From Halobacterium sp. CBA1132 (GTDB lineage Archaea > Halobacteriota > Halobacteria > Halobacteriales > Halobacteriaceae), in assembly GCF_001485535.1 (NCBI RefSeq), contig NZ_BCMZ01000001.1:124001-188000 (forward strand): a DNA stretch of 64,000 nucleotides. The letters are read 5' to 3'. Positions 14,526 to 55,395 of the stretch are shown in pieces. The stretch's first letter is position 1. Every line of letters begins with the position of its first letter. Made by a program: the position numbers and the translations under genes. The notes under the pieces were generated by a model, which had not been told where the DNA came from, searched no databases, and saw nothing but the letters and a program-made list of their open reading frames with translations.

Positions 14526-15953
14526 TCAGGCGTCGCTGTCCCGCTGCCACGCGGCGAGTGCGGCGGCCGAGACGCCCGCGAGCGCGGCGAGCGCGCCAAA
14601 CCCGGGGACGCCACCTCCGGACTCGTCGGTCGTCGTGGTCTCGGTCGCCGTCGGCGCCGTCGTCGTCGCCGTGGTCGTCTCGGTCGCCGTCTCCGTGCTC
14701 GTCGCAACTGTCGTCGTCTCCAGCGTCGGCGGGTCGGGCTGCTCGCCCGCGCGGTTCGGGAACGTGTAGACGCCCGCCGGATACCCGTCTCCGCCCATGC
14801 TGCTCGCGACGAACGCCTCGTCGGTCGCGTACTGCGCGGTCCAGAACCGCGCCTCCTCGGGCCGGCGCCACCACGCAATCTCCTCCGGATTCGCGGGGTC
14901 GCTGACGTCGTGAATCTTCACGCCGCCCTGATACCACGACGTGTACAGTCGGTCGCCGTGGAACTCGAAGTTGTGACTGGTCGTCCACGTCCCGTACCGG
15001 GTGCCGTCGGGCGTCGGCGGCGGCGCGATGAACGACAACTTCTCGGGGTTCTGCGGGTCTGCGATGTCCCAGAGGTCGATGCCGCCCTGCCCCGGGTCGG
15101 CGTCGTCGGTGTCGACGTCCCACGCCTCCGCACCCGTCGCGAGCACGGACGCGCCCTCGTTCACCGCGACGTAGTGGGCGTTCCCCGGGACCGAGAGACT
15201 CTCTGCGCGCGCCTCGCCCGAGGGGACGTTCTGTAACTCCTCGACATCGTAGTGTCCGAAGTGATTGACGTACTCGGGGTCGGCGGGGTCGCTGACATCC
15301 ACCAGCCACGTGCCCGCGTCCCAGTACGCGATGTACAGCGTGTCGTCGTGGACGTAGAGGTCGTGGCACGTCCGCAGCCCTGCGCGAACGTCCCGCCAGC
15401 GCTCGTCGTGGTCGACGTTCGACCACCGCCCGACCTCCTCGGTGGTGTCCCCGGAGACGTCGACGAAGACGGCGGGGTTCTTCGCCCAGTCGTTGGCCGT
15501 CAGGTACGCCACGCCGTCCTGCAGGTAGGCGTTGTGAATCGGGAACGATGTCTCGTGGAACGCCGTCTGCCGGGGGTTGGCGGGGTCGTTGACGTCGAAG
15601 ACGACGACGCCCCGTAGGTCCCCTCGGTTCGCCGGACCGACCGCAATCAGGGTGTCGCCGTCGACTTTCACGTCGTAGACCTCCCCCATCGGGCCGTCCT
15701 CGCGGTCGTCCAGCAGCGGTGCTACGCCCGCGAGCTGTTCGGGGTTCGACGGGTCCGAGATGTCAACGGTCGCGATACCGTCGGTCGTCGCCACGTACGC
15801 CGTCTCACCGGCGTCGCCGACGACGACTTCCTTCGTTCCGTCGAGGTCGAGGACGCCCAGCGGCTCGAACGACTGCTGGGCGCTGACTGTCGCGCTCGCG
15901 AACGGGAGGGCGGCCGCAGCGGCACTCGCACGGAGCACGTCTCGTCGTCGCAT
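14526..15953 (-). CDS. Tat-exported LVIVD-repeat surface protein with PGF-CTERM tail
   Basis: A 475-residue secreted protein. The N terminus has a twin-arginine signal (MRRRDVLRASAAAAALPF). The body holds LVIVD beta-propeller repeats, each ending in lines such as VDISDPSNPEQL, FDVNDPANPRQT, VDVSDPADPEYV and HDVSDPANPEEI. A Thr-rich glycosylation-type linker follows. The C terminus is a PGF-CTERM signal: PGFG at VPGFGALAALAG, a hydrophobic helix, then WQRDSDA. Archaeosortase A recognises such tails, and an artA gene lies at 36951 in this window. The ligand or function of the propeller is unknown. Confidence 0.9.
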   Translation of the reverse strand: MRRRDVLRASAAAAALPFASATVSAQQSFEPLGVLDLDGTKEVVVGDAGETAYVATTDGIATVDISDPSNPEQLAGVAPLLDDREDGPMGEVYDVKVDGDTLIAVGPANRGDLRGVVVFDVNDPANPRQTAFHETSFPIHNAYLQDGVAYLTANDWAKNPAVFVDVSGDTTEEVGRWSNVDHDERWRDVRAGLRTCHDLYVHDDTLYIAYWDAGTWLVDVSDPADPEYVNHFGHYDVEELQNVPSGEARAESLSVPGNAHYVAVNEGASVLATGAEAWDVDTDDADPGQGGIDLWDIADPQNPEKLSFIAPPPTPDGTRYGTWTTSHNFEFHGDRLYTSWYQGGVKIHDVSDPANPEEIAWWRRPEEARFWTAQYATDEAFVASSMGGDGYPAGVYTFPNRAGEQPDPPTLETTTVATSTETATETTTATTTAPTATETTTTDESGGGVPGFGALAALAGVSAAALAAWQRDSDA

Positions 15954-18189: not shown

Positions 18190-18930
18190 GTGCTCGCTCC
18201 CGACCTCACCGACCGCACCGCGCTCGTCACCGGCGGCGCGACGGGGCTGGGCCGCGCGCTCTGCCTGTCGCTGGCCGACTGCGGCGCCAGCGTCGCCGTC
18301 CACTACCACTCCAGCGCCGACGCCGCCCGCGTCACCGCCGCCGACGCCCGCGACCGCGGCGCTCCCGACGCTGCACCCGTGCAGGGCGACGTAACCACTC
18401 CCGAGAGCGTCGACGGCATCTTCGACGCGGCGGAAGCCGAACTCGGCGCCGTGGACGTACTCGTGAACAACGTCGGCGACTTCGCGCCCGGTCACTGGGC
18501 GGGCCTCGATTTCGAGACGTGGAACCGCGTCCTCCACACGAACCTCACGGGGACGTACCTCTGCTCGAAGCGCGCGCTCCCCGGGATGCGCGACCAGCAG
18601 TGGGGCCGCATCGTCAACATCGGCTACGCGTCCGCCGAGAAGGGCATGGTCTCCCCGAAGAACTTCCCGTACTTCGCCGCGAAACAGGGCGTGCTCATGT
18701 TCACGCGGATGCTCGCCGCGGACACCCAAGACGACGGCATCACGGTCAACGCCGTCTCACCGTACGTCGTCGAGACCTCGGACGAGTTCCCCGAGGACGC
18801 CCCGCGCGGCCGCTGGGCTTCGACCGACGACATCGCGCAGGCAGTCCGGTTCTTCTGCGACGAGAACTCCGACTACATCTCCGGCGAGAACGTCGAAGTT
18901 GACGGCGGATGGTTGCCAGAGGACGTGTAA
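18190..18930 (+). CDS. Short-chain dehydrogenase/reductase
   Basis: A 246-residue classical SDR beginning at a GTG (18190). The cofactor motif is VTGGATGLGRAL. The NNVGDF segment corresponds to NNAG. The active site is YFAAK (YxxxK). The lysine and tyrosine are intact; the usual upstream Ser region reads NIGYASAEKG. The enzyme uses NAD(P)(H); family members often act as 3-oxoacyl-ACP reductases, but the substrate is unknown. The last codons, GGWLPEDV stop, are found again 228 bp downstream at 19129-19158 in a separate copy. Confidence 0.92.
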   Translation: MLAPDLTDRTALVTGGATGLGRALCLSLADCGASVAVHYHSSADAARVTAADARDRGAPDAAPVQGDVTTPESVDGIFDAAEAELGAVDVLVNNVGDFAPGHWAGLDFETWNRVLHTNLTGTYLCSKRALPGMRDQQWGRIVNIGYASAEKGMVSPKNFPYFAAKQGVLMFTRMLAADTQDDGITVNAVSPYVVETSDEFPEDAPRGRWASTDDIAQAVRFFCDENSDYISGENVEVDGGWLPEDV

Positions 18931-19128
18931 CGCTGTTCGGCATCCACGAGCGAAGCGAGTGGTTCGCTGCCGGAGCGGGGCGAAGCCCCGCGAAGGCAGG
19001 GGTTTTTAGCGTAGATTTTTGCGAGGAGTGGTCGCCGGAGGCGACCCGACATGGTTCGAGAGGCGCTTTGCGCCTCTCGTCATGCCGAGACGGCTTCGCC
19101 GTCTCGTATCAAAGTAAAAAGGTACGTG
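18931..19128. repeat. Modular palindromic element between the two SDR 3' ends
   Basis: About 200 bp packed with hairpins. At 18944-18962 the stem ccac/gtgg encloses the loop gagcgaagcga. At 19002-19028 lies a 27-nt AT-rich core that occurs once more, inverted, at 55317-55343 with one mismatch. Further hairpins are gtcgcc/ggcgac (19031-19045), cgagaggcgc/gcgcctctcg (19057-19079) and cgagacggc/gccgtctcg (19086-19106). The element ends with aagtaaaaaggtac (19112-19125), whose reverse complement lies directly after the fusA stop codon at 55272. No protein is encoded. Confidence 0.75.
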
Positions 19129-19158
19129 TACGGCGGGTGGCTACCCGAGGACGTGTAG
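19129..19158 (+). pseudogene. Detached second copy of the SDR 3' end
   Basis: The 30 nt read Tyr-Gly-Gly-Trp-Leu-Pro-Glu-Asp-Val-stop, against Asp-Gly-Gly-Trp-Leu-Pro-Glu-Asp-Val-stop at the end of the intact SDR gene (18901-18930). 24 of 30 bases match. The differences inside the shared residues are synonymous (gga/ggg, ttg/cta, cca/ccc), so both copies once evolved as coding sequence. The palindromic element at 18931-19128 separates them. Confidence 0.7.
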
Positions 19159-19170
19159 CGTGAGGTCCAT

Positions 19171-19389
19171 TCATTCCGACTCTCGACCCAGCCACCACGC
19201 GAGCCCGATGCTCGCGACGAGGAGCGTCACGGAGCCGTAGAGGATGGCGGTCCCACGGGTCAAGGAACTACGGTCGACGGCGCGCAGCAGCGTCCGCCCG
19301 ACCCAGAACAGCACGGCGCCGGCGACGACGAGCTTGAACAACAGGAACTCGTATTCGAGCCACGTCGTGAATCCGTCCCACGAAGCCAT
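19171..19389 (-). CDS. Small two-helix membrane protein
   Basis: A 72-residue protein. Two hydrophobic segments are visible (about residues 15-36, LLFKLVVAGAVLFWVGRTLL, and about 46-66, TAILYGSVTLLVASIGLAWW), with a short acidic end RESE. The first helix is preceded by WDGFTTWLEYE. No family was recognised and no catalytic residues are evident. It lies upstream of and on the same strand as nothing obvious; 46 bp separate it from the next small membrane protein gene, which is on the same strand and upstream. Confidence 0.65.
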   Translation of the reverse strand: MASWDGFTTWLEYEFLLFKLVVAGAVLFWVGRTLLRAVDRSSLTRGTAILYGSVTLLVASIGLAWWLGRESE

Positions 19390-19435
19390 GGATTAAATTC
19401 CGCGCGCTCGGGTAAGTATTTTCTCGCGTTCGGCG

Positions 19436-19627
19436 TCAGCTCTCGCTCCACGGCCCGACGCCGAAGACGTTCCCGGCTACCCAGCCGGCGGCGAACGGCG
19501 CGACGACGGCCAGACAGCCGAGGCCGACCCAGCGCGCGGGCGGCGGTTGGCTGGCGAGGTAGCCGAGGTACGCGATGCCCGCGACGGGGAGCAGGCGGGC
19601 CAGCACCGAGTTCGACTGCGCGCTCAT
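19436..19627 (-). CDS. Small two-helix membrane protein
   Basis: A 63-residue protein starting MSAQSNSVLARLLPVAGIAY with two hydrophobic stretches (about 10-26 and 33-54) separated by ASQPPPARW. The ATG at 19627 was preferred over one 63 bp upstream, because the added segment is not hydrophobic or conserved-looking. The function is unknown. It may be co-transcribed with the small membrane protein gene that follows at 19389-19171. Confidence 0.65.
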   Translation of the reverse strand: MSAQSNSVLARLLPVAGIAYLGYLASQPPPARWVGLGCLAVVAPFAAGWVAGNVFGVGPWSES

Positions 19628-21755: not shown

Positions 21756-21813
21756 CGGTGTGCGTTCGGGTGCGTCGCCTTCCAGTAAAAGGGTTCGCAC
21801 GGTCACCGGCATC

Positions 21814-22501
21814 GTGTTTAGTTTAGCGAGTTCCACCAGACGGCGAAGGCTTGCAACCACGATTCCGCTGTTGTTGGCTCGACGTGGCTGAAACTATTAC
21901 TGAACGAGGAAGTCCGTCGTTTTATCTCTCTAAAAACACGTTCGACAGCATTCCGATTCCCATGACGAACGGTTTGGAATCGGAGCCCGACTCGCTGGAG
22001 TGCTGTTTTGAGGTGCTGGGCGTGATCAACTAGAAACACGGCATCTTCGACGTCGTGTTTCTCGCGTAATTCCTGCAGAAATCGTTCAGTCAACGCCGTT
22101 GTTGTCGTCGGAAACAGCCGTATATGCAGGAATCTGTTCGAGGCTGGATTGATGGCAGCGTACAGCCAGTACTGCTGGCCGTCGATGCGGATCACCGTTT
22201 CGTCAACCGCAATCTGATCCGGACTAGCGTTGCTGGCGGGCTGTAGATCAGCTTTCTGTACCCAATCATGGACCGCTTTTCGCGAGCGTTGGACACCGAA
22301 CTTCTCAAGTTCTTTTATTGTATTCGAAAGTGAGAGACCAGCCAAATGAAGTCGAATACCAAGCTGCATCAGCTCGCTCGGTGTCCGCTCTCGCTCCACA
22401 AAATCTAACTCGATCCAGTCGCTACAGCCACTGAGGCGAGTGATTTCAGCCATAGACAGCAGAAATCACTCTCGCCTCACTTTTCAGTCTTAACTAAACA
22501 C
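21814..22501. mobile_element. IS6-type insertion sequence, copy 1
   Basis: A 688-bp element with terminal inverted repeats gtgtttagtt (left, 21814) and aactaaacac (right, ending 22501), extended imperfectly inward. It contains a single transposase gene on the minus strand. Both the size and the single DDE transposase fit haloarchaeal IS6-family elements (ISH14/ISH15 type, from memory). The left flanking octamer is ccggcatc and the right flanking octamer gaccgtca, so no target duplication is visible for this copy alone. Confidence 0.9.
21818..22453 (-). CDS. IS6-family transposase, copy 1
   Basis: A 211-residue DDE transposase beginning MAEITRLSGCSDWIELDFVE. An N-terminal helix-turn-helix (FGVQRSRKAVHDWVQKADLQ) precedes the catalytic core: first Asp in AVDETVIRI, second Asp in VFLVDHAQHL, and Glu in NAVERVFREIKRR. 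The sequence is full length and appears intact. It is nearly identical to the second copy next to it. Confidence 0.93.
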   Translation of the reverse strand: MAEITRLSGCSDWIELDFVERERTPSELMQLGIRLHLAGLSLSNTIKELEKFGVQRSRKAVHDWVQKADLQPASNASPDQIAVDETVIRIDGQQYWLYAAINPASNRFLHIRLFPTTTTALTERFLQELREKHDVEDAVFLVDHAQHLKTALQRVGLRFQTVRHGNRNAVERVFREIKRRTSSFSNSFSHVEPTTAESWLQAFAVWWNSLN

Positions 22502-22517
22502 GACCGTCACCGGCATC
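22502..22517. repeat. 16-bp junction between the two IS copies
   Basis: The junction reads gaccgtcaccggcatc. Its second half, gtcaccggcatc, equals the left flank of copy 1. Its first half, gaccgtca, closely matches the right flank of copy 2 (gacccgtca). The join lies in shared gtca. This is what a tandem duplication of one IS with recombination between its right and left flanks would leave. Confidence 0.7.
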
Positions 22518-23207
22518 GTGTTTAGTTTAGCGAGTTCCACCAGACGGCGAAGGCTTGCAACCACGATTCCGCTGTTGTTGGCTCGACGTGGCTGAAACTA
22601 TTACTGAACGAGGAAGTTCGACGTTTTATCTCTCTAAAAACACGTTCGACAGCATTCCGATTCCCATGACGAACGGTCTGGAATCGAAGCCCGACTCGTT
22701 GGAGTGCTGTTTTGAGATGCTGGGCGTGATCAACCAGAAACACTGCGTCTTCAACGTCGTGTTTCTCGCGTAACTCCTGCAGAAACCGTTCAGTCAACGC
22801 CGTTGTTGTCGTCGGAAACAGCCGTACGTGCAGGAATCTGTTCGAATTAGGATTGACGGCAGCGTACAGCCAGTACTGCTGGCCGTCGATGCGGATCACC
22901 GTTTCGTCAACCGCAACCTGATCCGGACTAGCGTCGCTGGCGGGCTGTAGATCAGCTTTCTGCACCCAGTCATGGATGGCTTTCCGCGAGCGTTTGACAC
23001 CGAACTTCTCAAGTTCTTTGACGGTATTCGAAAGTGAGAGTCCAGCCAGATGGAGTCGAATACCAAGACGCATCAGCTCGCTCGGTGTCCGCTCTCGCTC
23101 CACAAAATCTAACTCAAGCCAGTCGCTACAGCCACTGAGGCGGGTGATTTCTGCCATGAACCAGCTGAAAATCACTTCCGCCTCACTTTTCAGCCTTAAC
23201 TAAACAC
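22518..23207. mobile_element. IS6-type insertion sequence, copy 2
   Basis: A 690-bp element with the same terminal repeats as copy 1 (gtgtttagtt at 22518, aactaaacac ending 23207) and the same orientation. It differs from copy 1 by scattered substitutions, so the duplication is not brand new or the copies arrived separately. No cargo lies between the copies, so this is not a working composite transposon. Confidence 0.9.
22522..23157 (-). CDS. IS6-family transposase, copy 2
   Basis: A 211-residue DDE transposase starting MAEITRLSGCSDWLELDFVE, with the same helix-turn-helix and D-D-E residues as copy 1 (AVDETVIRI, FLVDHAQHL, NAVERVFREIKRR). An in-frame start 18 bp upstream exists, but the Met at 23157 corresponds to the start of copy 1. 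Replacements against copy 1 include Ile to Leu near residue 14 and changes in the NPNSNRFLHVRL stretch. Confidence 0.93.
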   Translation of the reverse strand: MAEITRLSGCSDWLELDFVERERTPSELMRLGIRLHLAGLSLSNTVKELEKFGVKRSRKAIHDWVQKADLQPASDASPDQVAVDETVIRIDGQQYWLYAAVNPNSNRFLHVRLFPTTTTALTERFLQELREKHDVEDAVFLVDHAQHLKTALQRVGLRFQTVRHGNRNAVERVFREIKRRTSSFSNSFSHVEPTTAESWLQAFAVWWNSLN

Positions 23208-29853: not shown

Positions 29854-30013
29854 TCCCGTATAAGCGCGAGCGAGAGACGCTAGAAACAGCCAGAAGACAT
29901 TTTCCGGTGAAGGAAAGCTAGTGGTAATACCCCTACCCACTGGTGCCAGCGTTCAGTACCGTCGCACCCGCGACGCGAACGACGTCGGTACCGAAATCGA
30001 GGATTACCAAACC
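29854..30013 (+). promoter_or_regulatory. Promoter and leader of S-layer gene 1
   Basis: A box-A-like gtataagc (29858-29865) lies in the upstream region. From 29929 to the ATG at 30014 a leader sequence follows that is nearly identical over its first 60 nt to the leader of the second S-layer gene (32888-32973). It contains the small hairpin gtcgc-accc-gcgac. A long leader is established for Halobacterium csg mRNA, so this conservation fits a regulatory or stabilising 5' UTR. Confidence 0.6.
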
Positions 30014-32596
30014 ATGACAAACAACACAGACAAGCTCCGCGCGGTCTTCCTGACTGCGCTGATGATCGGCAGCGTCTTCGCAGCCGGCATCGCGTTCACA
30101 GGCAGCGCCGCTGCGGGCACAAACGTCGACATCGGTCCTGGCACGAACGAGTCAGGCGCAACGGGTGTCACGTATACCGCAACAGGGACGACCGAGAACA
30201 GTAGTGACATGCAGTATCTCACCTTCTATCTGGAAGGTGTGAATCTCAGCAACGTCCAGAGCGAGGACGTCACGCTCACTACTGCCGATGGAGAGTACAG
30301 CAGCCAGATTACCGTCTCGAACGACGACGAGAACAACCTCTCGATTCAGCTCGCTGACTCCGAGGGCGTCCAAACTGACGAGAACGTGACGCTGGAAGTC
30401 ACGGGGCTCACGAATCCGACCGCGGGAACGTACGACGCATCCCTCGCTCTTGAGACCACTAGTGAGGGAAGTTCGTTCGACACGTTCAACGATACGTTCA
30501 GTATCAATCCGTCCGCCACCATCAACTCGGATAGAGTGTTCAACGACCGCGACGAACTCTCCGGATCGCTGGTCTTTCAGGGACAGACGTTTGCACTCGA
30601 TGTGTCGAATGCGAATCTCAGTAGTGGCGATAATGTCGTGTTGCGGCGCGTAACTGGATCAGATAGTTCGACGCCAGTTGCCAGTCAGCAGGTCGACGAC
30701 GACCTCTACGTCCAGTTCGACACGTCTAATCGTCAGACCTCAGATTACTTCCTTAGTGGAGGGGATCTCACCCGAAGTAACAGCCAGTTCGAGCTCGTCG
30801 AGCAGACGATTACCGCCGAGTTCGCAGAAGACACCGTCGACAACGGTGGCGAGACCGAGGTCAACTTCAGCGTCTCCTCGGAACTCCGCGCTGCTGACGA
30901 GTACAACGCGACCGTTACTGTCGAAGGCTTCAGCGCCGCCGACTTCGAACAGGTCTTCCCCACTATCAGCGAGAGCGACGTTGAGGAGGACGACGACGGT
31001 AACAACTACATCACGGTTGAGGACATCGACGCGGGCAGCCCGCACGTCCTCAACTTCAACGACATCGACGCAGGCAACTACACCTTCGACGTTGAGGTGA
31101 CGGACACGACGGCCTCCGACACTGCCAACATCACCGTCAACGAAGTCGGTGAAGGCAGCGTCTCCTTCGCACAGAACACGTACATCGAACAACAGGGCGA
31201 CGTCTTCAACATCACCATCGACCTGAGCGAGGCCGCCCAGTCCGGCACGCTCGTCATCGGTGACGAAGAAGACATCGGCTACCAAGCCAACGTCTCCTTC
31301 GAGGATACCAACGACGACGGCCAGGTTAGTGTCCTCTTCAACAGCTACGAAGCCGGTAACTACAACGGTGGCAGCGGTGCAGAAGTTGTCGAAGCCGCCG
31401 CAAACGAGGACACTCAGGACACCGTCTCCATGCTCGGCGAGACGGGCGGCATCGAGAGCATTCTCGAGCCTGGCGACTACGAGCTCGCAGTCAGCACCGA
31501 CAGCAGTAGTGACCGCGCACAGGCTACGCTCGATAACCCGAGCGCCCTCTCCGTCGCCGTCATCGAAGAGCGCTCGACGACCGGCGTCAACCTCTGGGTC
31601 GCCTCCGACAACACCGTTAGCGACATCGACTCCGCCGAGGACATCGCTGCCGGTGCCGGTACGAACATCACCGAGAGCGACACCGTCGCCTCCGGTGACA
31701 CCATCATCCACCAGTTCGAGGCCTCCGGCCTTACCGGCCTCCTCGACACGCAGGACGCCGACACGACCGCTGCGTTCAAGGCACTCCTCGACAACGAGAA
31801 CGTGACGGTCACGGTCAACCAGACCGAGGAGTCCACCCAAGCGAACCGCGAGCCGAAGACGCTCAACAACACGGAAGTTGCTAACGCCGTTACCGGTGTC
31901 TACCAGGACGGTGACACCTACTACGTCGTTACCAACACCAACGACCTCAACGACGAGGCCGACCGTAACTTCGCCGCGGAGGACGTGCTCAACGTCACCT
32001 TCACGGTCGAGGACCACCGCCTCCTCGACAGCACTAACAGCGAAGACTACCAGCACGTCTCTGACGAGATCGAGCTGGTCGAGCGTTCGGCTTCCTTCGA
32101 CTACGACGGTGACGAAATCACCGTCGAAGCCGCATCCGGCCAGGTCATCTCCGGTGACACGACGATCGCGCCCGGTAGCGAGTTCACGCTGCGCGTCCGT
32201 TCGACCGGCGACACGCAGCCGCGCTTCACCATGGGCCCCACCGTCACGGTCGCCGCTGATGGTACCTTCAGTCACGAGTTCGACTTCAGCGAGCGCTCGG
32301 TGAACGACACGTTCACCGCCTCGCTCTCCGGCGGTAACTTCGCCGAATCCGTCAGCGCTGACGGTGTTGTCGTCGAAGCCACCGCAACCGCCACGGCAAC
32401 CGCCACCTCGACGGGCACCGCCACCGCTACGGCCACCGAGACCGCTACGGCAACGGAAACCGCCACGGCCACGGAAACCGCTACGGCCACGGAAACGTCT
32501 GAAGACGAGTCCGGCGGCGGCATCCCCGGCTTCGGCATGGGCATCGCGCTCATCGCCGTCCTCGGTGCTGCCCTGCTGGCTCTCCGCCAGAACTAA
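30014..32596 (+). CDS. csg: S-layer glycoprotein 1
   Basis: An 860-residue cell-surface glycoprotein. It begins MTNNTDKLRAVFLTALMIGS, a Sec signal cleaved near AAA-GTN (residue 34), close to the known Halobacterium csg signal. The body has many N-x-S/T glycosylation sites and beta-rich domains. From about residue 258 it matches the second S-layer protein closely. A repeat stalk of the form TATATETATATE, for O-glycosylation, precedes the PGF-CTERM tail (GIPGFGMGIALIAVLGAALL then ALRQN). ArtA processing and lipid attachment of such tails is established in Haloferax. A strong terminator hairpin follows. Confidence 0.95.
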   Translation: MTNNTDKLRAVFLTALMIGSVFAAGIAFTGSAAAGTNVDIGPGTNESGATGVTYTATGTTENSSDMQYLTFYLEGVNLSNVQSEDVTLTTADGEYSSQITVSNDDENNLSIQLADSEGVQTDENVTLEVTGLTNPTAGTYDASLALETTSEGSSFDTFNDTFSINPSATINSDRVFNDRDELSGSLVFQGQTFALDVSNANLSSGDNVVLRRVTGSDSSTPVASQQVDDDLYVQFDTSNRQTSDYFLSGGDLTRSNSQFELVEQTITAEFAEDTVDNGGETEVNFSVSSELRAADEYNATVTVEGFSAADFEQVFPTISESDVEEDDDGNNYITVEDIDAGSPHVLNFNDIDAGNYTFDVEVTDTTASDTANITVNEVGEGSVSFAQNTYIEQQGDVFNITIDLSEAAQSGTLVIGDEEDIGYQANVSFEDTNDDGQVSVLFNSYEAGNYNGGSGAEVVEAAANEDTQDTVSMLGETGGIESILEPGDYELAVSTDSSSDRAQATLDNPSALSVAVIEERSTTGVNLWVASDNTVSDIDSAEDIAAGAGTNITESDTVASGDTIIHQFEASGLTGLLDTQDADTTAAFKALLDNENVTVTVNQTEESTQANREPKTLNNTEVANAVTGVYQDGDTYYVVTNTNDLNDEADRNFAAEDVLNVTFTVEDHRLLDSTNSEDYQHVSDEIELVERSASFDYDGDEITVEAASGQVISGDTTIAPGSEFTLRVRSTGDTQPRFTMGPTVTVAADGTFSHEFDFSERSVNDTFTASLSGGNFAESVSADGVVVEATATATATATSTGTATATATETATATETATATETATATETSEDESGGGIPGFGMGIALIAVLGAALLALRQN

Positions 32597-32606
32597 CCAC
32601 CACGAC

Positions 32607-32627
32607 TGACCGCCCGTAAGGCGGTCA
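32607..32627 (+). terminator. Hairpin after S-layer gene 1
   Basis: The stem tgaccgcc/ggcggtca (8 bp) with loop cgtaa lies 10 bp after the stop codon and is followed at 32650-32659 by a T-rich cctttcttt stretch. The same hairpin, with one stem change, follows S-layer gene 2. This fits a transcription terminator or a protective 3' end for abundant mRNA. Confidence 0.65.
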
Positions 32628-32973
32628 CACTACGCGGTACCCCAACCCGCCTTTCTTTCACGACGCCACAACCCGACAGTGGAAACACTGCGCTCGACAA
32701 TTCGGGCGCGTATCGACTATACTACTGTCTTAATATCTTGGTATTTGTTATCAAAGGGGTGTTTCGGAAAACCACCGAGTTACGCCCCAAACACCCCGAT
32801 ACCGTGTGAACCGCACACACAATTTCGCAGCAGAAGGGGGTGCATATAACAGAAAGTATTTACGGCCAACGAGGTACATATTGGAACACCCCTACCCACT
32901 GGTGCCAGCGTCCAGTACCGTCGCACCCGCGACGCGAACGACCTCGGTGCCGAACTGCAATCCAAAGCAAACC
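32628..32973 (+). promoter_or_regulatory. Intergenic region and leader of S-layer gene 2
   Basis: No gene is seen here. An AT-rich stretch at 32710-32760 (ttaatatcttggtatttgt region) and box-A-like gcatataac (32842-32850) and gtatttac (32856-32863) precede a leader at 32888-32973. The leader's first 60 nt are nearly identical to the leader of gene 1. The second box A is about 27 bp before the conserved leader start, suggesting transcription begins there. Confidence 0.55.
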
Positions 32974-35586
32974 ATGACAGAAAACACAAACAAGCTTCGC
33001 GCGGTCTTCCTGACTGCGCTGATGATCGGCAGCGTCTTCGCGGCCGGCATCGCGTTCACAGGAAGTGCTGCGGCGGACCTCAACACCACCAACGTAGAGG
33101 TTGGTGACAACACTACTGACGCTACTACCTACCACAACGTCAGTGGTAACCTTGCAAATCCGTCGGACAGTAGCATAGACAACATCACTGTGGACTATAG
33201 TGTCGGCGCTGAGGCGTCAGACGTCTCGAACGTCGGCCCCGGGAATGTCAACAGCGTTGTTGTTAATGGCACTACGGTAACTGTCGGCAGCGTTGATGGT
33301 AGCAACAACGGTGAAACCGCTACCTTCCAGTTCGACAGTAGCGTTAATGTGTCTGGTGGAGACGCCTTCCACCTGAACTACTCCAACGTTCAGAATCCCA
33401 GCAACGCCGGAGTTTACGACGTTAATGTATCCCTCGAAAACGGGAGTACTGCCGTCGATAGTGGCACACTCAGCTACGAGATTGTGTCCAGCTCCAGCGG
33501 CAGTAGTGCCGCTCCCGATGGCGTTGACGAGGTCTTCAACAGCCCGACGAACCTGTCGGAGCAGCTGATCTTCCAGGGTCAGACGATCGCAGTTGACGTC
33601 TCCGACTACGCCGATAACCAAACCTCGGTCTACCTCCGTCAGGGAGACGCTGAGGACTCCTCGGCCGTCGCTCAGGACACCGTTGAGGACGGCTGGGTCG
33701 TCTTCGACACCAGCAACCGCGAAACCGCCGACTACTTCCTGCGCGGTGGTACCCTGAACGCGAACAACAGCAGCTTCGAGCTCGTCGAGCAGACGATTAC
33801 CGCCGAGTTCGCAGAAGACACCGTCGACAACGGTGGCGAGACCGAGGTCAACTTCAGTGTCTCCTCGGAACTCCGCGCCGCTGACGAGTATAACGCGACC
33901 GTTACTGTCGAAGGCTTCAACGACGCTGACTTCGCGCAGGTCTTCAACGTCAGCGAAGACAACGTCAGCGAGAACGACGACGGCGTTCACTACATCGAGG
34001 TTGAGGACATCGACGCGGACAGCCCGCACGTCCTCGACTTCAACGACATCGACGCAGGCAACTACACCTTCGACGTTGAGGTGACGGACACGACGGCCTC
34101 CGACACCGCCAACGTCACCGTCAACGAAGTCGGTGAAGGCAGCGTCTCCTTCGCCGAGAACACCTACGTCGAACAGCAGGGCGACGTCTTCAACATCACC
34201 GTCGACCTGAGCGAGGCCGCTCAGTCCGGCACGCTCGTCATCGGTGACGAAGAAGACATCGGCTACCAAGCCAACGTCAAGTTCACCGACCAGAACGACG
34301 ACGGCCAGGTCCACGTCCTCTTCAACAGCTACGAAGCCGGCACCCACGGCTCCGGCGCTGAAGTCGTCGAAGCAGCCGAGAACGACGACACCCAGGACGA
34401 CGTCTCCCTGATCAACGAAACTGGTGACGTCGAGAGCATCCTCGAGTCTGGTGACTACGAGCTCGCAGTCAGCACCGACACCAGCAGTGACCGTATTTCG
34501 GAGACGCTCGATAACCCGAGCGCCCTCTCCGTCGCAGTCATCGAGGAGCGCGCCACCACTGGCGTCAACCTCTGGACCGCCTCCACTAACACCGTCAGCG
34601 ACCTCGACTCCGCCGAGGACATCGCTGCCGGTGCCGGTACGAACATCACCGAGAGCGACACCGTCGCCTCCGGTGACACCATCATCCACCAGTTCGAGGC
34701 CTCCGGCCTTACCGGCCTCCTCGACACGCAGGACGCCGACACGACCGCTGCGTTCAAGGCACTCCTCGACAACGAGAACGTGACGGTCACGGTCAACCAG
34801 ACCGAGGAGTCCACGCAGGCCAACCGCGAGCCGAAGACGCTCAACAACACGGAAGTTGCTAACGCCGTCACCGGTGTCTTCCAGGACGGTGACACCTACT
34901 ACGTCGTTACCAACACCAACGACCTCAACGACGAGGCCGACCGCAACTTCGCTGACGAGGACGTGCTGAACGTCACCTTCACGGTCGAGGACCACCGTCT
35001 CCTCGACAGCACGGACAGCGAAGACTACCAGCACGTCTCTGACGAGATCGAACTGGTCGAGCGTTCGGCTTCCTTCGACTACGATGGTGACGAGATCACC
35101 GTCGAAGCCGCATCCGGCCAGGTCATCTCCGGCGAAACCTCGATCGCGCCCGGTAGCGAGGTCACGCTGCGCGTTCGCTCGACTGGCGACACGCAGCCTC
35201 GCTTCACCATGGGCCCGACCGTCACGGTCGCCGCTGATGGCACCTTCAGTCACGAGTTCGACTTCAGCGAGCGCTCGGTGAACGACACGTTCACCGCATC
35301 GCTCTCCGGCGGTAACTTCGCCGAATCCGTCAGCGCTGACGGTACTGTCGTCGAATCCACCATGACGTCCACCACGGAAGCTCCGTCCACCACGGAAGCA
35401 CCGTCGACGACGGAAGCTCCGTCCACCACGGAAGCGCCGTCGACCACGGAAGCTCCGAGCACGACGGAAGCTCCGTCTACGACGGACGACAGCGGTTCCT
35501 CCGGTAGCGGCATCCCCGGCTTCGGCATGGGCATCGCGCTCGTCGCCGTGCTCGGTGCTGCCCTGCTGGCACTCCGCCAGAACTAA
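32974..35586 (+). CDS. csg: S-layer glycoprotein 2
   Basis: An 870-residue paralogue of the upstream S-layer protein. The signal peptide is almost the same (MTENTNKLRAVFLTALMIGS). The first 230 residues of the mature protein differ strongly from gene 1. From about residue 268 (FELVEQTITAEFAEDTV) the two run nearly identical, with about 209 bp of perfect nucleotide identity at 34606-34814. The stalk is replaced by a TTEAPS repeat. The PGF-CTERM tail is shared (GIPGFGMGIALVAVLGAALL). Both genes have the same terminator hairpin. They may be expressed alternately or together; the sequence does not show which. Confidence 0.95.
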   Translation: MTENTNKLRAVFLTALMIGSVFAAGIAFTGSAAADLNTTNVEVGDNTTDATTYHNVSGNLANPSDSSIDNITVDYSVGAEASDVSNVGPGNVNSVVVNGTTVTVGSVDGSNNGETATFQFDSSVNVSGGDAFHLNYSNVQNPSNAGVYDVNVSLENGSTAVDSGTLSYEIVSSSSGSSAAPDGVDEVFNSPTNLSEQLIFQGQTIAVDVSDYADNQTSVYLRQGDAEDSSAVAQDTVEDGWVVFDTSNRETADYFLRGGTLNANNSSFELVEQTITAEFAEDTVDNGGETEVNFSVSSELRAADEYNATVTVEGFNDADFAQVFNVSEDNVSENDDGVHYIEVEDIDADSPHVLDFNDIDAGNYTFDVEVTDTTASDTANVTVNEVGEGSVSFAENTYVEQQGDVFNITVDLSEAAQSGTLVIGDEEDIGYQANVKFTDQNDDGQVHVLFNSYEAGTHGSGAEVVEAAENDDTQDDVSLINETGDVESILESGDYELAVSTDTSSDRISETLDNPSALSVAVIEERATTGVNLWTASTNTVSDLDSAEDIAAGAGTNITESDTVASGDTIIHQFEASGLTGLLDTQDADTTAAFKALLDNENVTVTVNQTEESTQANREPKTLNNTEVANAVTGVFQDGDTYYVVTNTNDLNDEADRNFADEDVLNVTFTVEDHRLLDSTDSEDYQHVSDEIELVERSASFDYDGDEITVEAASGQVISGETSIAPGSEVTLRVRSTGDTQPRFTMGPTVTVAADGTFSHEFDFSERSVNDTFTASLSGGNFAESVSADGTVVESTMTSTTEAPSTTEAPSTTEAPSTTEAPSTTEAPSTTEAPSTTDDSGSSGSGIPGFGMGIALVAVLGAALLALRQN

Positions 35587-35597
35587 CGAATAACGAC

Positions 35598-35618
35598 TGA
35601 CCGCTCGTAAGGCGGTCA
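35598..35618 (+). terminator. Hairpin after S-layer gene 2
   Basis: The stem tgaccgct/ggcggtca with loop cgtaa lies 11 bp after the stop, followed by ctttctttcg at 35641-35650. It is the counterpart of the hairpin at 32607, with the innermost pair changed from C-G to T-G. Confidence 0.65.
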
Positions 35619-35689
35619 CACTACGCGGTACCCCACCCCACTTTCTTTCGCGCGCTACACTCCGACAGCGGCAGCGCTGTCCAACGTGA

Positions 35690-36950: not shown

Positions 36951-37853
36951 ATGGTATCCGCGTTGACCGACACGCTCGCGTGGGTCGTCATCGCGGCGTT
37001 CGGGACGAGCGCCGTCCTCCAGGCCGACTACCGCCAGTACAGCCGGTACGCGGCGGTCGCGGCGTGGACGCTGTTCGCGGCGTTCTGGGGGCTGCTCGTG
37101 CCGTACTACTTCTTCGAGCACTTGAGCGTCATCGAGGGCGTGCTGAGCGCGGCCGCGGTGCCCGCGTGTCTGTACACCGCGTACCTCGTCGGCACGGGGA
37201 AGCGCCAACTGGAGACGCTGACGCGCTCGATCGCGATTATGGGGCTGTTGTTCCTGCCGTTCCAGACCATCGAGGCGACGCGGCAGTTCGCCATCGAGAC
37301 GGTCGCCCAGCAGGCCGAGTGGCTGATGGCGCAGTTCGGCTACTACCCGCCCGTCGTGGAGGGCGACCACGGCTACACGGCGAAATTCATGTTCACGGGC
37401 GAGCACGCCGTCACGGGCGAGTCGTGGAAGTTCCCGACGACGGTCCTGATGGCGTGTACGGGCATCGGCAGCATGTCCATCGTCGGCGGGCTCGCGCTCG
37501 CCGTGAAAGCGCCGTGGAAGCGCCGGCTACAGGCGCTGGCGGTCGCGCTCCCCGTCATCTACGGGCTGAACGTGATTCGCGTGGCGTTCATCGCCGTCGC
37601 GCACGGCGAGCAGTGGTTCCGCGGCGGCATCTACAAGACGCTCGCGTTCGCCGTGTTCCCCAGCAACGACCCGAATATGGTGTCGTATCTGTTCGCCGAC
37701 CGCATGCTCGCGCAGTCCGCGTCGGTCGTCGCGCTCGTCGTGTTGACGTTCGCGCTGCTCCGCATCGTCCCGGAGCTCGGCGGCGTCGTCGAGGACGTCG
37801 CGTACATCGCGACCGGCAACGAGTACGACATCACCGAGCGCTTCGCAGAGTAG
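36951..37853 (+). CDS. artA: Archaeosortase A
   Basis: A 300-residue membrane protein with about eight hydrophobic helices. The catalytic Cys lies in MACTGIGSMSI (Cys169), Arg210 in NVIRVAFIAVAHG and Arg251 in FADRMLAQS. This spacing matches Haloferax ArtA (Cys, Arg, Arg essential there). ArtA removes PGF-CTERM tails and couples the protein to a membrane lipid. Three such substrates are in this window: both S-layer proteins 1.4 kb upstream and the LVIVD protein at 14526. A diverged second copy of its last 45 bp lies 880 bp downstream, beyond the TumE module. Confidence 0.95.
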   Translation: MVSALTDTLAWVVIAAFGTSAVLQADYRQYSRYAAVAAWTLFAAFWGLLVPYYFFEHLSVIEGVLSAAAVPACLYTAYLVGTGKRQLETLTRSIAIMGLLFLPFQTIEATRQFAIETVAQQAEWLMAQFGYYPPVVEGDHGYTAKFMFTGEHAVTGESWKFPTTVLMACTGIGSMSIVGGLALAVKAPWKRRLQALAVALPVIYGLNVIRVAFIAVAHGEQWFRGGIYKTLAFAVFPSNDPNMVSYLFADRMLAQSASVVALVVLTFALLRIVPELGGVVEDVAYIATGNEYDITERFAE

Positions 37854-37897
37854 CATTCGGCCAAGAGAGTGAATAGCGGTCGTGCTAGCAACGACTG

Positions 37898-38365
37898 CTA
37901 GGCGGACGCCTGCGATTCCGCGCCACCGTCCCGAGACAGACCAAACTCGACTTCGAGCCGCACTGTGTCGTAGGGAACGTACGGCTTCTTCGCTCGCCCG
38001 GCTTCCTCGAAGTGAACGATGTCGTAGTCCGCGAGCAGATACAGGTCGTCGTGGACGTCGTGGACGTCGCGGTCGAGGCGGTCGGCCAGCGCGCGGATGC
38101 TGTCGGGGGGCCGCTCCATCACTTCTTCGAGCAGCTCCATCCGCCGGTTAGTGAGCAGTTCGCGCAGCTGCGCGCGGTCTTCGAAGTTCACGACGTGCGG
38201 GACTTCCGCACCGTTCTCCCACTGCTCGGCGCGCTCGAGCGCGGCGGCTTGCGCTTGCTCGGCGGGGAGCGCGGTGATTCGGAGCGTCGAGGGGTAGTCG
38301 ACCTCCTCGGGTCCGGGCGTGAATTCGTCGTGCGTGGGTTCGGTGTCAGTTGGTTCGTCGGGCAT
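37898..38365 (-). CDS. HVO_A0114-type DNA-binding protein (antitoxin of TumE pair)
   Basis: A 155-residue protein with a helix-turn-helix around residues 75-120 (LRELLTNRRMELLEEVMERP, then ALADRLDRDVHDVHDDLYLL). It belongs, from memory, to the HVO_A0114 family of putative DNA-binding proteins found beside TumE toxins. It starts 20 bp inside the end of the TumE-like gene. The HEPN/MNT-like activity of TumE pairs is known in few systems, so antitoxin function is inferred from the pairing. Confidence 0.8.
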   Translation of the reverse strand: MPDEPTDTEPTHDEFTPGPEEVDYPSTLRITALPAEQAQAAALERAEQWENGAEVPHVVNFEDRAQLRELLTNRRMELLEEVMERPPDSIRALADRLDRDVHDVHDDLYLLADYDIVHFEEAGRAKKPYVPYDTVRLEVEFGLSRDGGAESQASA

Positions 38366-38654
38366 AGATTTCGTTCACCTCGGTGTGGAACTGTTCGACG
38401 AGGTCGGGGAGCCCGGTAAAGTCGAGCGCCTCAATCTCGCCGTCGGGTGTGTGTCGGTGGTGTCGCCCTACGTCGAGGTGGTAGGGCGTGTTGTCGTACC
38501 GCAGGAGTGTGTCGCCGTCAGCGTCCATGTACTGGAAGCTGTATTTCAACCCCTGCGGGAACTCCTCGCTTTCCGGGACTTGCCACGCCTCCATCACGTA
38601 CCTGCTGCCGTCTGGCTTCGTGCTTTCGTCCCGATAAACGCGGTTTGCGCCCAT
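38346..38654 (-). CDS. TumE-family toxin
   Basis: A 102-residue protein starting MGANRVYRDESTKPDGSRYV. The core MEAWQVPESEEFPQGLKYSF, then RYDNTPYHLDVGRHHRHTPDG, is typical of the TumE family (DUF6516). Its ATG at 38654 is directly preceded by cggagg, a Shine-Dalgarno-like sequence too close to the ATG to be standard. It is first in the two-gene module, overlapping the HTH gene by 20 bp. The module lies between the artA stop and a second copy of artA's 3' end. Confidence 0.8.
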   Translation of the reverse strand: MGANRVYRDESTKPDGSRYVMEAWQVPESEEFPQGLKYSFQYMDADGDTLLRYDNTPYHLDVGRHHRHTPDGEIEALDFTGLPDLVEQFHTEVNEIYARRTN

Positions 38655-38663
38655 CCTCCGTAT

Positions 38664-38680
38664 GTTGGGTCTAGCACCCA
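38664..38680. promoter_or_regulatory. Operator-like palindrome of TumE module
   Basis: The sequence ttgggtctagcacccaa has perfect 6-bp arms around a ctagc centre. It lies between a box-A-like tgtttaac (38685-38692 on the minus strand) and the toxin ATG. This is the same layout as in the AbrB/PIN module. Confidence 0.6.
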
Positions 38681-38733
38681 ACGGTGTTAAACATTAGGCC
38701 TCGACGAGCAACTGGGGGTTGGAAGAAGACGTC

Positions 38734-38778
38734 GCGACCGGCAACGAGTACGAGATTACCGAGCGCTTCGCGACGTAG
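38734..38778 (+). pseudogene. Detached second copy of the artA 3' end
   Basis: The 45 nt encode ATGNEYEITERFAT and a stop, against ATGNEYDITERFAE and a stop at the true artA end (37809-37853). 40 of 45 bases match, the first 20 exactly. The upstream bases gaagaagacgtc correspond to gtcgaggacgtc of artA, with nine bases missing between. The TumE module fills the 880 bp separating the two copies. Confidence 0.8.
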
Positions 38779-38878
38779 CGCAGACTGACGGCTGCGCTAC
38801 GGCTCGTCTTTCACCTGCGGCTACCGACTCGAAGAACCACGAATATCAGCGAATGGCTACCCGGTAGCGGGTGGACTG

Positions 38879-53081: not shown

Positions 53082-55271
53082 ATGGGCCGACGCAAGAAGA
53101 TTGTCGAGAAGTGCGAACGGCTGATGGACCAGCCGGAGCAGATCCGGAACATCGCCATCGCCGCGCACGTCGACCACGGTAAGACCACGCTGACCGACAA
53201 CCTGCTGGCCGGCGCCGGCATGATTTCCGAGGACACCGCCGGCGAGCAGCTGGCGATGGACACCGAGGAGGACGAACAGGAACGCGGCATCACCATCGAC
53301 GCCGCGAACGTCTCCATGACCCACGAGTACGAGGGCGAAGACCACCTCATCAACCTCATCGACACGCCCGGCCACGTCGACTTCGGTGGCGACGTGACGC
53401 GTGCGATGCGCGCCGTCGACGGCGCGCTCGTCGTGGTGGACGCCGTCGAGGGCGCCATGCCCCAGACGGAGACAGTGCTCCGGCAGGCGCTCCGAGAGGG
53501 CGTCAAGCCGACGCTGTTCATCAACAAAGTCGACCGCCTCATCTCCGAACTGCAGGAGGGTCCCGAGGAGATGCAGGAGCGGCTCCTGAGCGTCATCCGC
53601 GAGGTCAACGAGCTCATCCGCGGGATGACCGAGGAGATGGACGACATCACCGAGGACTGGACGGTCTCCGTCGAGGGCGGCACCGTCGGCTTCGGCTCCG
53701 CGCTCTACAAGTGGGGCGTCTCGATGCCGTCGATGCAGCGCACCGGCATGGACTTCGGCGACATCATGGAGCTGGAGCGCTCGGACAAGCGCCAGGAGCT
53801 CCACGAGCGCACGCCCCTGTCGGACGTCGTCCTCGACATGGTCTGTGAGCACTTCCCGGACCCCATCGAGGCCCAGCCCCACCGCATTCCGCGCATCTGG
53901 CGGGGCGACGCGGACTCCGAAATCGCGGACACGATGCGGATGGTCAACGAGGACGGCGAAGTCGTCCTGATGGTCACCGACATCGGCATCGACCCGCACG
54001 CCGGCGAAATCGCCGCGGGTCGCGTGTTCTCCGGCACACTCGAGAAGGGCCAAGAGCTGTACGTCTCCGGGACCGCGGGCAAGAACCGCATCCAGAGCGT
54101 CGGCATCTACATGGGCGGCGAGCGCGAGGAAGTCGACGAGGTTCCCGCAGGGAACATCGCCGCCGTCACCGGCCTCAAGGACGCCATCGCCGGGTCCACG
54201 GTTTCCAGCGTCGAGATGACGCCGTTCGAGTCCATCGAACACATCTCGGAGCCGGTCATCACGAAGTCCGTCGAGGCGCAGAACATGGACGACCTGCCGA
54301 AGCTCATCGAGACGCTCCAGCAGGTCGCCAAGGAAGACCCGACCATCCAGATCGAGATCAACGAGGACACCGGCGAGCACCTCATCTCCGGGCAGGGTGA
54401 ACTCCACCTCGAAGTCATCACCCAGCGCATCGAGCGCAACCAGGGCATCCCCGTGAACACCGGCGAACCCATCGTCGTGTTCCGCGAGTCCCCGACCAGC
54501 GACTCCCGCGAGGTCGAGGGCGTCTCCCCGAACCGCCACAACAAGTTCTACATCACCATCGAGCAGCTCGACGACGACGTCCTCGAGCAGCTCCGCCTCG
54601 GCGAAGTGTCGATGGACATGCCCGAACAGGAGCGCCGCGAAGCGCTCCAGGACGCCGGCATGGACAAGGACACCTCGCAGAGCGTCGAGAACATCATCGG
54701 GAAGAACATCTTCATCGACGACACGAAGGGTATCCAGCACCTCAACGAGACGATGGAACTCGTCGTCGAGGGCCTCGAAGAGGCGCTCGGTGACGGTCCG
54801 CTGGCCGCCGAACCCGTCGAGGGTGCGCTCATCCGACTCCACGATGCGCGCCTCCACGAGGACGCCATCCACCGCGGTCCCGCGCAGGTCATCCCCGCCG
54901 TCCGCGACGCCGTCCACCGCGGCCTCATGGACGCCGAGATTCGCCTGCTCGAACCGATTCAGGACGTCCGTATCGACGTTCCCTCCGAGCACATGGGCGC
55001 CGCGTCCGGCGAGATTCAGGGACGCCGCGGCCGCGTCGACGACATGTACCAAGAGGGCGGCATGATGGTCGTCGAGGGCATCGCGCCCGTCGAAGAGATG
55101 ATTGGCTTCTCCAGTGACATCCGCTCGGCCACCGAGGGCCGCGCGTCCTGGAACACGGAGAACGCCGGCTTCCGCGTCATGGCCGACAACCTCCAGCCCG
55201 AAATCATCAAGCAGATTCGAGAGCGCAAGGGCATGAAGACCGAGCTGCCCGAGCAGATCGGTTACTTCTAA
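53082..55271 (+). CDS. fusA: Translation elongation factor EF-2
   Basis: A 729-residue translocase. The GTPase motifs are AHVDHGKTT (residues 28-36), DTPGHVD and NKVD. The switch I region [13 protein letters not shown] is intact. Domain IV carries the diphthamide His in [20 protein letters not shown]. It moves tRNA and mRNA after peptide bond formation. The stop codon is followed at once by gtacctttttactt, part of a repeat element (see 55272). Confidence 0.97.
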
Positions 55272-55395
55272 GTACCTTTTTACTTCGTCGGGTGCGCTCG
55301 CTTCACTCGCGCACCGCTCCTCGCAAAAAGCTACGCTAAAAACTTCCTGCGCTCACTTCGTTCGCGCAGTGAAACGCGCGGCGGAGCCGCGCGTA
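55272..55395. repeat. Modular palindromic element after fusA
   Basis: It begins with gtacctttttactt (55272-55285), exact reverse complement of 19112-19125. Then follow the hairpin ggtgcgc/gcgcacc around loop tcgcttcactc (55291-55315), the 27-nt core (55317-55343, one mismatch to the complement of 19002-19028), the hairpin ctgcgc/gcgcag around loop tcacttcgttc (55347-55369), and cgcgcggc/gccgcgcg (55375-55393). It is the same element as at 18931-19128 in the other orientation, without the two-hairpin module. Beyond it, up to 55607, lies the promoter of the ACT gene (gcttatagcg near 55468). Confidence 0.8.

Follow-up and report, generated by a model that had tools for sequence, protein, structure and literature searches.

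A candidate mobile hairpin element with terminator-like ends lies between two copies of a gene end in Halobacterium

Why should the last codons of a gene that is itself complete be present a second time a short way downstream, on the far side of a palindromic segment? A first-pass annotation had noticed this arrangement behind a gene of the SDR dehydrogenase family in a stretch of 64,000 nucleotides of Halobacterium sp. CBA1132 (hereafter the window; the genome is G000). The features of the locus, with positions counted from the first letter of the window, are the following:

18190..18930, plus strand: SDR-family dehydrogenase gene, the target gene, with a GTG start and 246 aa (Pfam adh_short_C2, 2.6e-48; adh_short, 6.1e-45)
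18902..18932, plus strand: first copy of the duplicated end (direct repeat D1), consisting of the real SDR 3' end and 2 nt
18942..18999, no strand: left hairpin modules, CCACGAGCGAAGCGAGTGG at 18944-18962 and CTGCCGGAGCGGGGCGAAGCCCCGCGAAGGCAG at 18967-18999
19003..19020, plus strand: left end motif TTTTTAGCGTAGATTTTT, with T-tracts facing the SDR transcript (window expectation 0.00)
19030..19106, no strand: three internal hairpins (19030-19046, 19057-19079 and 19086-19106), from sequence, fold and species comparison
19116..19125, plus strand: right end AAAAAGGTAC, which pairs with the left end (GTA/TAC closing stem) and reads GTACCTTTTT on the other strand
19130..19160, plus strand: second SDR gene-end copy, non-coding, with GGWLPEDV and the stop still readable, from sequence, repeat search and species comparison

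The SDR end, GGCGGATGGTTGCCAGAGGACGTGTAA (18904-18930, GGWLPEDV plus stop), is present again as GGCGGGTGGCTACCCGAGGACGTGTAG (19132-19158), within a direct repeat of 31 nt that has 84% identity and a spacing of 228 bp, in agreement with what had been read from the sequence. The differences between the two copies, five within 27 nt, are indeed all synonymous or stop-to-stop. Because the first copy is under coding constraint, this pattern is no proof of the earlier conclusion, by which the second copy comes from an already diverged gene. When the differences were polarized against the SDR genes of nine other Halobacterium genomes, three of the five (18909 A, 18913 T and 18918 A) proved to be strain-specific states of the intact gene, the one at 19143 (A) is probably a change in the second copy, and the stop codon difference is ambiguous. 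The second copy is close to the genus consensus. With at least three of the five differences arisen in the intact gene, an origin of the second copy in a gene that diverged first is unsupported. Nor does the downstream copy belong to some other conserved ORF, since the 84-aa ORF that overlaps it is mechanical and the next gene lies on the opposite strand. A small membrane-protein-like ORF of 72 aa (19171-19389, minus strand) adjoins the second copy and is absent from this position in G005.

The DNA between the copies consists almost wholly of hairpins, as first described, and its RNA fold is far more stable than that of shuffled versions (z -4.84; none of 200 shuffles reached its stability). 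No known RNA family in Rfam was matched up to E 0.1 in 18700-19500. The segment has the layout of a family: a T-tract left end (TTTTTAGCGTAGMTTTTT), variable hairpins and, paired with the left end, a right end (AAAAAGGTAC). The number of internal modules differs between species, and the second left module (CTGCCGGAGCGGGGCGAAGCCCCGCGAAGGCAG) is common to copies at other loci (L019, L121, L026, L034 and L133). In the inner halves of the ends T5GC pairs with GCA5 and GM stands opposite GG; the closing triplet comes next. The triplets covary while remaining fully complementary: most copies have GTA/TAC, subfamily A has GCA/TGC and a third subfamily CGA/TCG. As terminal inverted repeats, GTAGMTTTTTGC and GCAAAAAGGTAC are complementary at 10-11 of 12 positions. 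This covariation supports the view that the two ends would function as a pair.

The SDR locus is present in 10 of the 13 Halobacterium genomes and was compared among them. A single gene end without the element is found in G004, G007, G008 and G009, and the order gene end, element, gene end in G000, G002, G003 and G005. G010 has a gene end, a subfamily A element, a second gene end, a subfamily B element and a third gene end, while G012 carries a subfamily A element and a second SDR gene end. The empty site of G009 aligns with the last copy of G010 and its flank. Species comparison thus supports the proposal that the palindromic element is an insertion that splits two SDR-end copies; the last copy is contiguous with the native downstream DNA, and insertion at this locus has occurred repeatedly. 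In a tree of SDR and artA, G000, G002, G005, G009 and G010 form a clade with G003 outside, and subfamily B has because of this either entered early and been lost several times or entered the SDR site repeatedly; recombination from repeat to repeat would allow several losses.

We favor, at a probability of roughly 55%, the reading of the element as a mobile, terminator-like hairpin whose insertion, behind stop codons, duplicates the end of the gene. The SDR segment would belong to a haloarchaeal group of hairpin elements, about 50-250 bp long and non-autonomous, whose ends are predicted to form one stem (xyz-GM-T5GC ... GCA5-GG-z'y'x') with further hairpins inserted into it. It would have inserted directly behind the SDR stop codon and copied the 3' end of its own target over some 27-35 nt, keeping the SDR gene intact and leaving a second, non-coding gene end on its far side. 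We infer that insertion and duplication are one event. The features seen are T-tracts, hairpins and a place behind stop codons, and the T-tracts on both strands make the element a plausible bidirectional transcription terminator, a putative function; T stretches are proven transcription terminators in Haloferax (PMC7237163).

The extra SDR ends of G010 and G012 are nearest to the gene of their own species (0-2 differences, as against 2-9 to other species), which indicates that the duplication was made from the target and not imported. The second copies in G000, G002, G003 and G005, on the other hand, are no closer to their own gene than to those of other species, which counts against the insertion reading. 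The opposite proposal, a version of the first-pass annotation's claim, is that the second (or the first) copy came in with the element from a homologous gene that had diverged. In this strain the two copies differ at 5 of 27 sites, and AT-ending codons are clustered at the SDR end (18895-18930), where the final 12 codons hold 5 of the 21 (P 0.0015, post hoc), a cluster that lowers the identity to the second copy; the codon counts of G004, taken in a wrong frame, were left aside. We consider such an import very improbable, as most differences are states of the intact gene copy only and the second copy is near the genus consensus, and the own-gene match of the extra copies in G010 and G012 contradicts it.

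The element is dispersed, and its left motif occurs in 14 copies in G000 (0 with a reversed control pattern) and in about 117 copies in the 13 Halobacterium genomes, where the reversed pattern has 1 match in the genus. The element was found in 12 of these 13 genomes, with 16 copies in G010. Among genomes sampled from the order, exact copies are present in 42 of 146, representing 16 of 56 genera (reversed control 0). The window holds a second member:

55267..55342, minus strand: element copy with its right end at the stop codon of the EF-2 gene (53082-55271, plus strand), without duplication

We infer that mobilization depends on an enzyme supplied in trans. A search for Y1_Tnp in the 13 genomes found it in 7 and none in G003, G004, G006 and G010, which carry the element; Y1/RAYT was rejected as the present-day mobiliser since it is absent from several carriers, including G010 with its 16 copies. 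Integration by a casposase or Cas1-like enzyme that duplicates its target and favors EF-2 and tRNA ends would recall casposons, which target EF-2 and can sit in tandem (PMC6563490), and the neighbors of the element include EF-2, tRNA-Leu, tRNA-Ser and tRNA-Arg. Yet a Cas1-family gene is absent from G000 and from 9 of the other 12 Halobacterium genomes, although nearly all of the 13 carry the element, and the copy beside EF-2 in the window is unduplicated, so that we give this explanation hardly any credence. The absence of Y1 transposases from several carriers, and of Cas1 from G000, also weighs against the insertion reading.

The family has a strict polarity. The right end lies at the stop codon of a gene that faces it in 95 of 122 copies (-6 to +20 nt), the most frequent position being that in which the element's last base completes the stop codon, and none of these 95 is duplicated. 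Of the remaining 26, half (13 copies) are followed, immediately past the right end, by a repeated gene end (Fisher 1e-10); among them are SDR (five species), an EtfA-like gene (two species), a tandem case, L151, one tRNA-Leu copy and L271. The duplications begin 0-6 nt past GGTAC at SDR, the EtfA-like gene (L021 and L103), the tandem L007, L151 and L271, the last of which has a different element family, a 90-nt duplication and a gene end resembling that of L151. They are 14-90 nt long over the 13 copies. The 14-nt repeat at L002, which is included in the tally, may be an attachment site, as an integrase match lies about 0.5 kb away. Some of the unduplicated remainder face a tRNA or a gene end that was altered by a second insert, and because of these the share of duplications in the gene-to-left-end orientation exceeds 13 of 26. 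At L052 and L152 a second small palindromic insert adjoins the element, and copies of the facing gene end (ATGATG-stop) lie on both sides of this insert. Under the insertion reading, stop-facing copies would mostly be resident terminator-like elements of conserved genes, and copies in the opposite orientation would be insertions that duplicated a gene end.

Variable duplication length (about 22 to 90 nt) counts against insertion, since a typical transposase would leave a short target duplication of fixed size. It would suit template switching during replication or break repair, in which synthesis through the gene end switches to a hairpin element elsewhere and resumes upstream of the point of departure, duplicating a stretch of gene end of no fixed size; palindromic modules, and element ends that coincide with the base of the stem, agree with such a jump. 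Returns past the stop codon, with no duplication or a small deletion, should however be frequent, whereas most intact cases in the orientation concerned are duplicated. The joints have little microhomology by eye, and the fixed right end is not easily explained by such a process. Template switching therefore appears improbable to us.

Gene-end duplications were also surveyed in G000 with a 30-nt gene-end probe at an identity of at least 24/30 within 1.5 kb downstream, for 396 genes in 464 kb of chromosome, the survey drawing on a 400 kb sample of chromosome stretches. Three genes gave a match, and none did with mid-gene control probes, so that the SDR repeat is more than a chance similarity; the three are SDR, a gene with tandem elements at G000:C1:274.7 kb, and aspS. 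The tandem locus (L201, about 14700-14980; G000:C1:274.7-275.0 kb) reads gene end, 50-bp element, gene end, identical element, gene end. At aspS (G000:C1, about 321.7-321.95 kb, in L204) the 3' end is found again about 241 bp downstream, behind a palindromic insert without the T5 motif. A fourth case, below the threshold of the survey, lies at artA in the window:

37804..37854, plus strand: artA 3' end, first copy (repeat D17), followed by a toxin-antitoxin-like insert in place of the element
38729..38779, plus strand: artA 3' end, second copy (repeat D17), 925 bp downstream

The likeness to artA that the first-pass annotation had drawn holds for the duplicated gene end (51 nt, 88%) but not for what separates the copies, a toxin-antitoxin-like pair without the palindromic element. 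This insert of about 870 bp encodes an HVO_A0114-family protein (37898-38365, minus strand) and a TumE-family toxin (38346-38681, minus strand); duplication and insert are also present in G005, and G011 has the empty site. Elsewhere in the window, two tandem, near-identical IS240-type DDE transposase genes (96%, spacing 704) occupy 21799-22802, and 29926-35644 holds two large paralogous regions at a distance of about 2.98 kb, whose gene ends and flanks are nearly identical (92-94%). At the tRNA-Leu locus (L232-L244, 13 species), tandem copies of about 25 nt of the tRNA 3' end alternate with unrelated palindromic spacers, and two units stand in swapped order in G010 and G002. In these two genomes the element appears to stand beside an older spacer, and the tRNA end may thus have been duplicated before the element arrived.

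Duplications without the element (artA, aspS and some tRNA-Leu units) count against the insertion reading and lead to its strongest rival, an attachment-site scar. In this explanation the SDR 3' end served as attB for a tyrosine-integrase element and an internal deletion left the hairpin between attL and attR, and the artA insert and the tRNA-Leu arrays would be like scars. It is common for integrative elements of archaea to use the 3'-distal parts of tRNA genes and protein-coding genes (PMC6563490), this genome has integrase genes, and the direct repetition of a gene 3' end on both sides, as in such elements, is what is seen at SDR. The variable repeat length fits as well, as do the tRNA-Leu arrays with their unrelated spacers in most species, which in G000 and G005 are followed by a gene resembling a tyrosine integrase (by eye). 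Against it, the ends of one and the same element are flanked by the ends of different genes, each its own target, so that an att site carried on the element fails as an explanation; the right end adjoins the repeat within the same few nucleotides every time, and neither an integrase nor a larger element is found at the SDR locus in 10 species. We regard a scar as fairly unlikely, and retain insertion of a mobile hairpin as the preferred reading.

How does the element compare with known systems? It resembles REPs, BIMEs and GTAG-tagged REPs (PMC3733652) in being short, modular, intergenic, hairpin-forming and often placed behind genes, and in its main subfamily it has a GTAG tetranucleotide at one stem end (AGC-GTAG-M-TTTTTGC). 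However, its tag varies (GTAG, GCAG or CGAG) and the first three letters pair with the other end, its stem is longer and interrupted by modules whereas GTAG stands at the end of a 20-40 bp palindrome in those REPs, and it has built-in T-tracts and gene-end duplications, while Y1/RAYT-type genes are missing in several carriers. The PATEs (palindrome-associated transposable elements) of Haloquadratum are likewise haloarchaeal, non-autonomous and palindromic. They have no terminal inverted repeats and no target duplications (PMC3119063), and identity with these IS605-derived elements is contradicted by the 14-90 nt duplications at 13 copies and by the covarying paired ends. With the Halobacterium MITEs (MITEHsal2 and others) the element shares non-autonomy, terminal inverted repeats and target duplication, but the duplications listed for MITEHsal2 are 6-8 bp (PMC10264941), whereas those of the element are 22-90 nt, variable in length, restricted to gene ends and lacking at 95 copies. 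Archaeal integrative elements in tRNA and protein gene 3' ends also leave the gene end intact and present twice; at SDR, unlike in these, there is neither integrase nor cargo, and one element is found at the ends of several unrelated genes. Archaeal T-tract terminators (PMC7237163) share the T stretch behind a stop codon and nearby hairpins, but the element belongs to a dispersed family of repeats whose two ends pair and whose modules change. A literature search, with most subscription journals outside its scope, found no description of this hairpin family. The element is best described as a palindromic mobile repeat with an unusual polar gene-end duplication.

Its recurrence at SDR and at other genes in related species makes a general way of inserting behind gene ends likely. 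A broader and rather speculative extension would be that mobile terminator hairpins copy the 3' end of their target, perhaps via the transcript, behind stop codons and tRNA ends alike, and that repeats of this process build arrays of gene ends and hairpins. Small palindromic repeats are abundant in prokaryotes and how they spread is mostly unknown; long gene-end duplications in one orientation are a clear mark by which an insertion can be dated and a mechanism tested. The finding suggests that terminators themselves may move between genes, which would change the view of 3'-end evolution in highly expressed genes.
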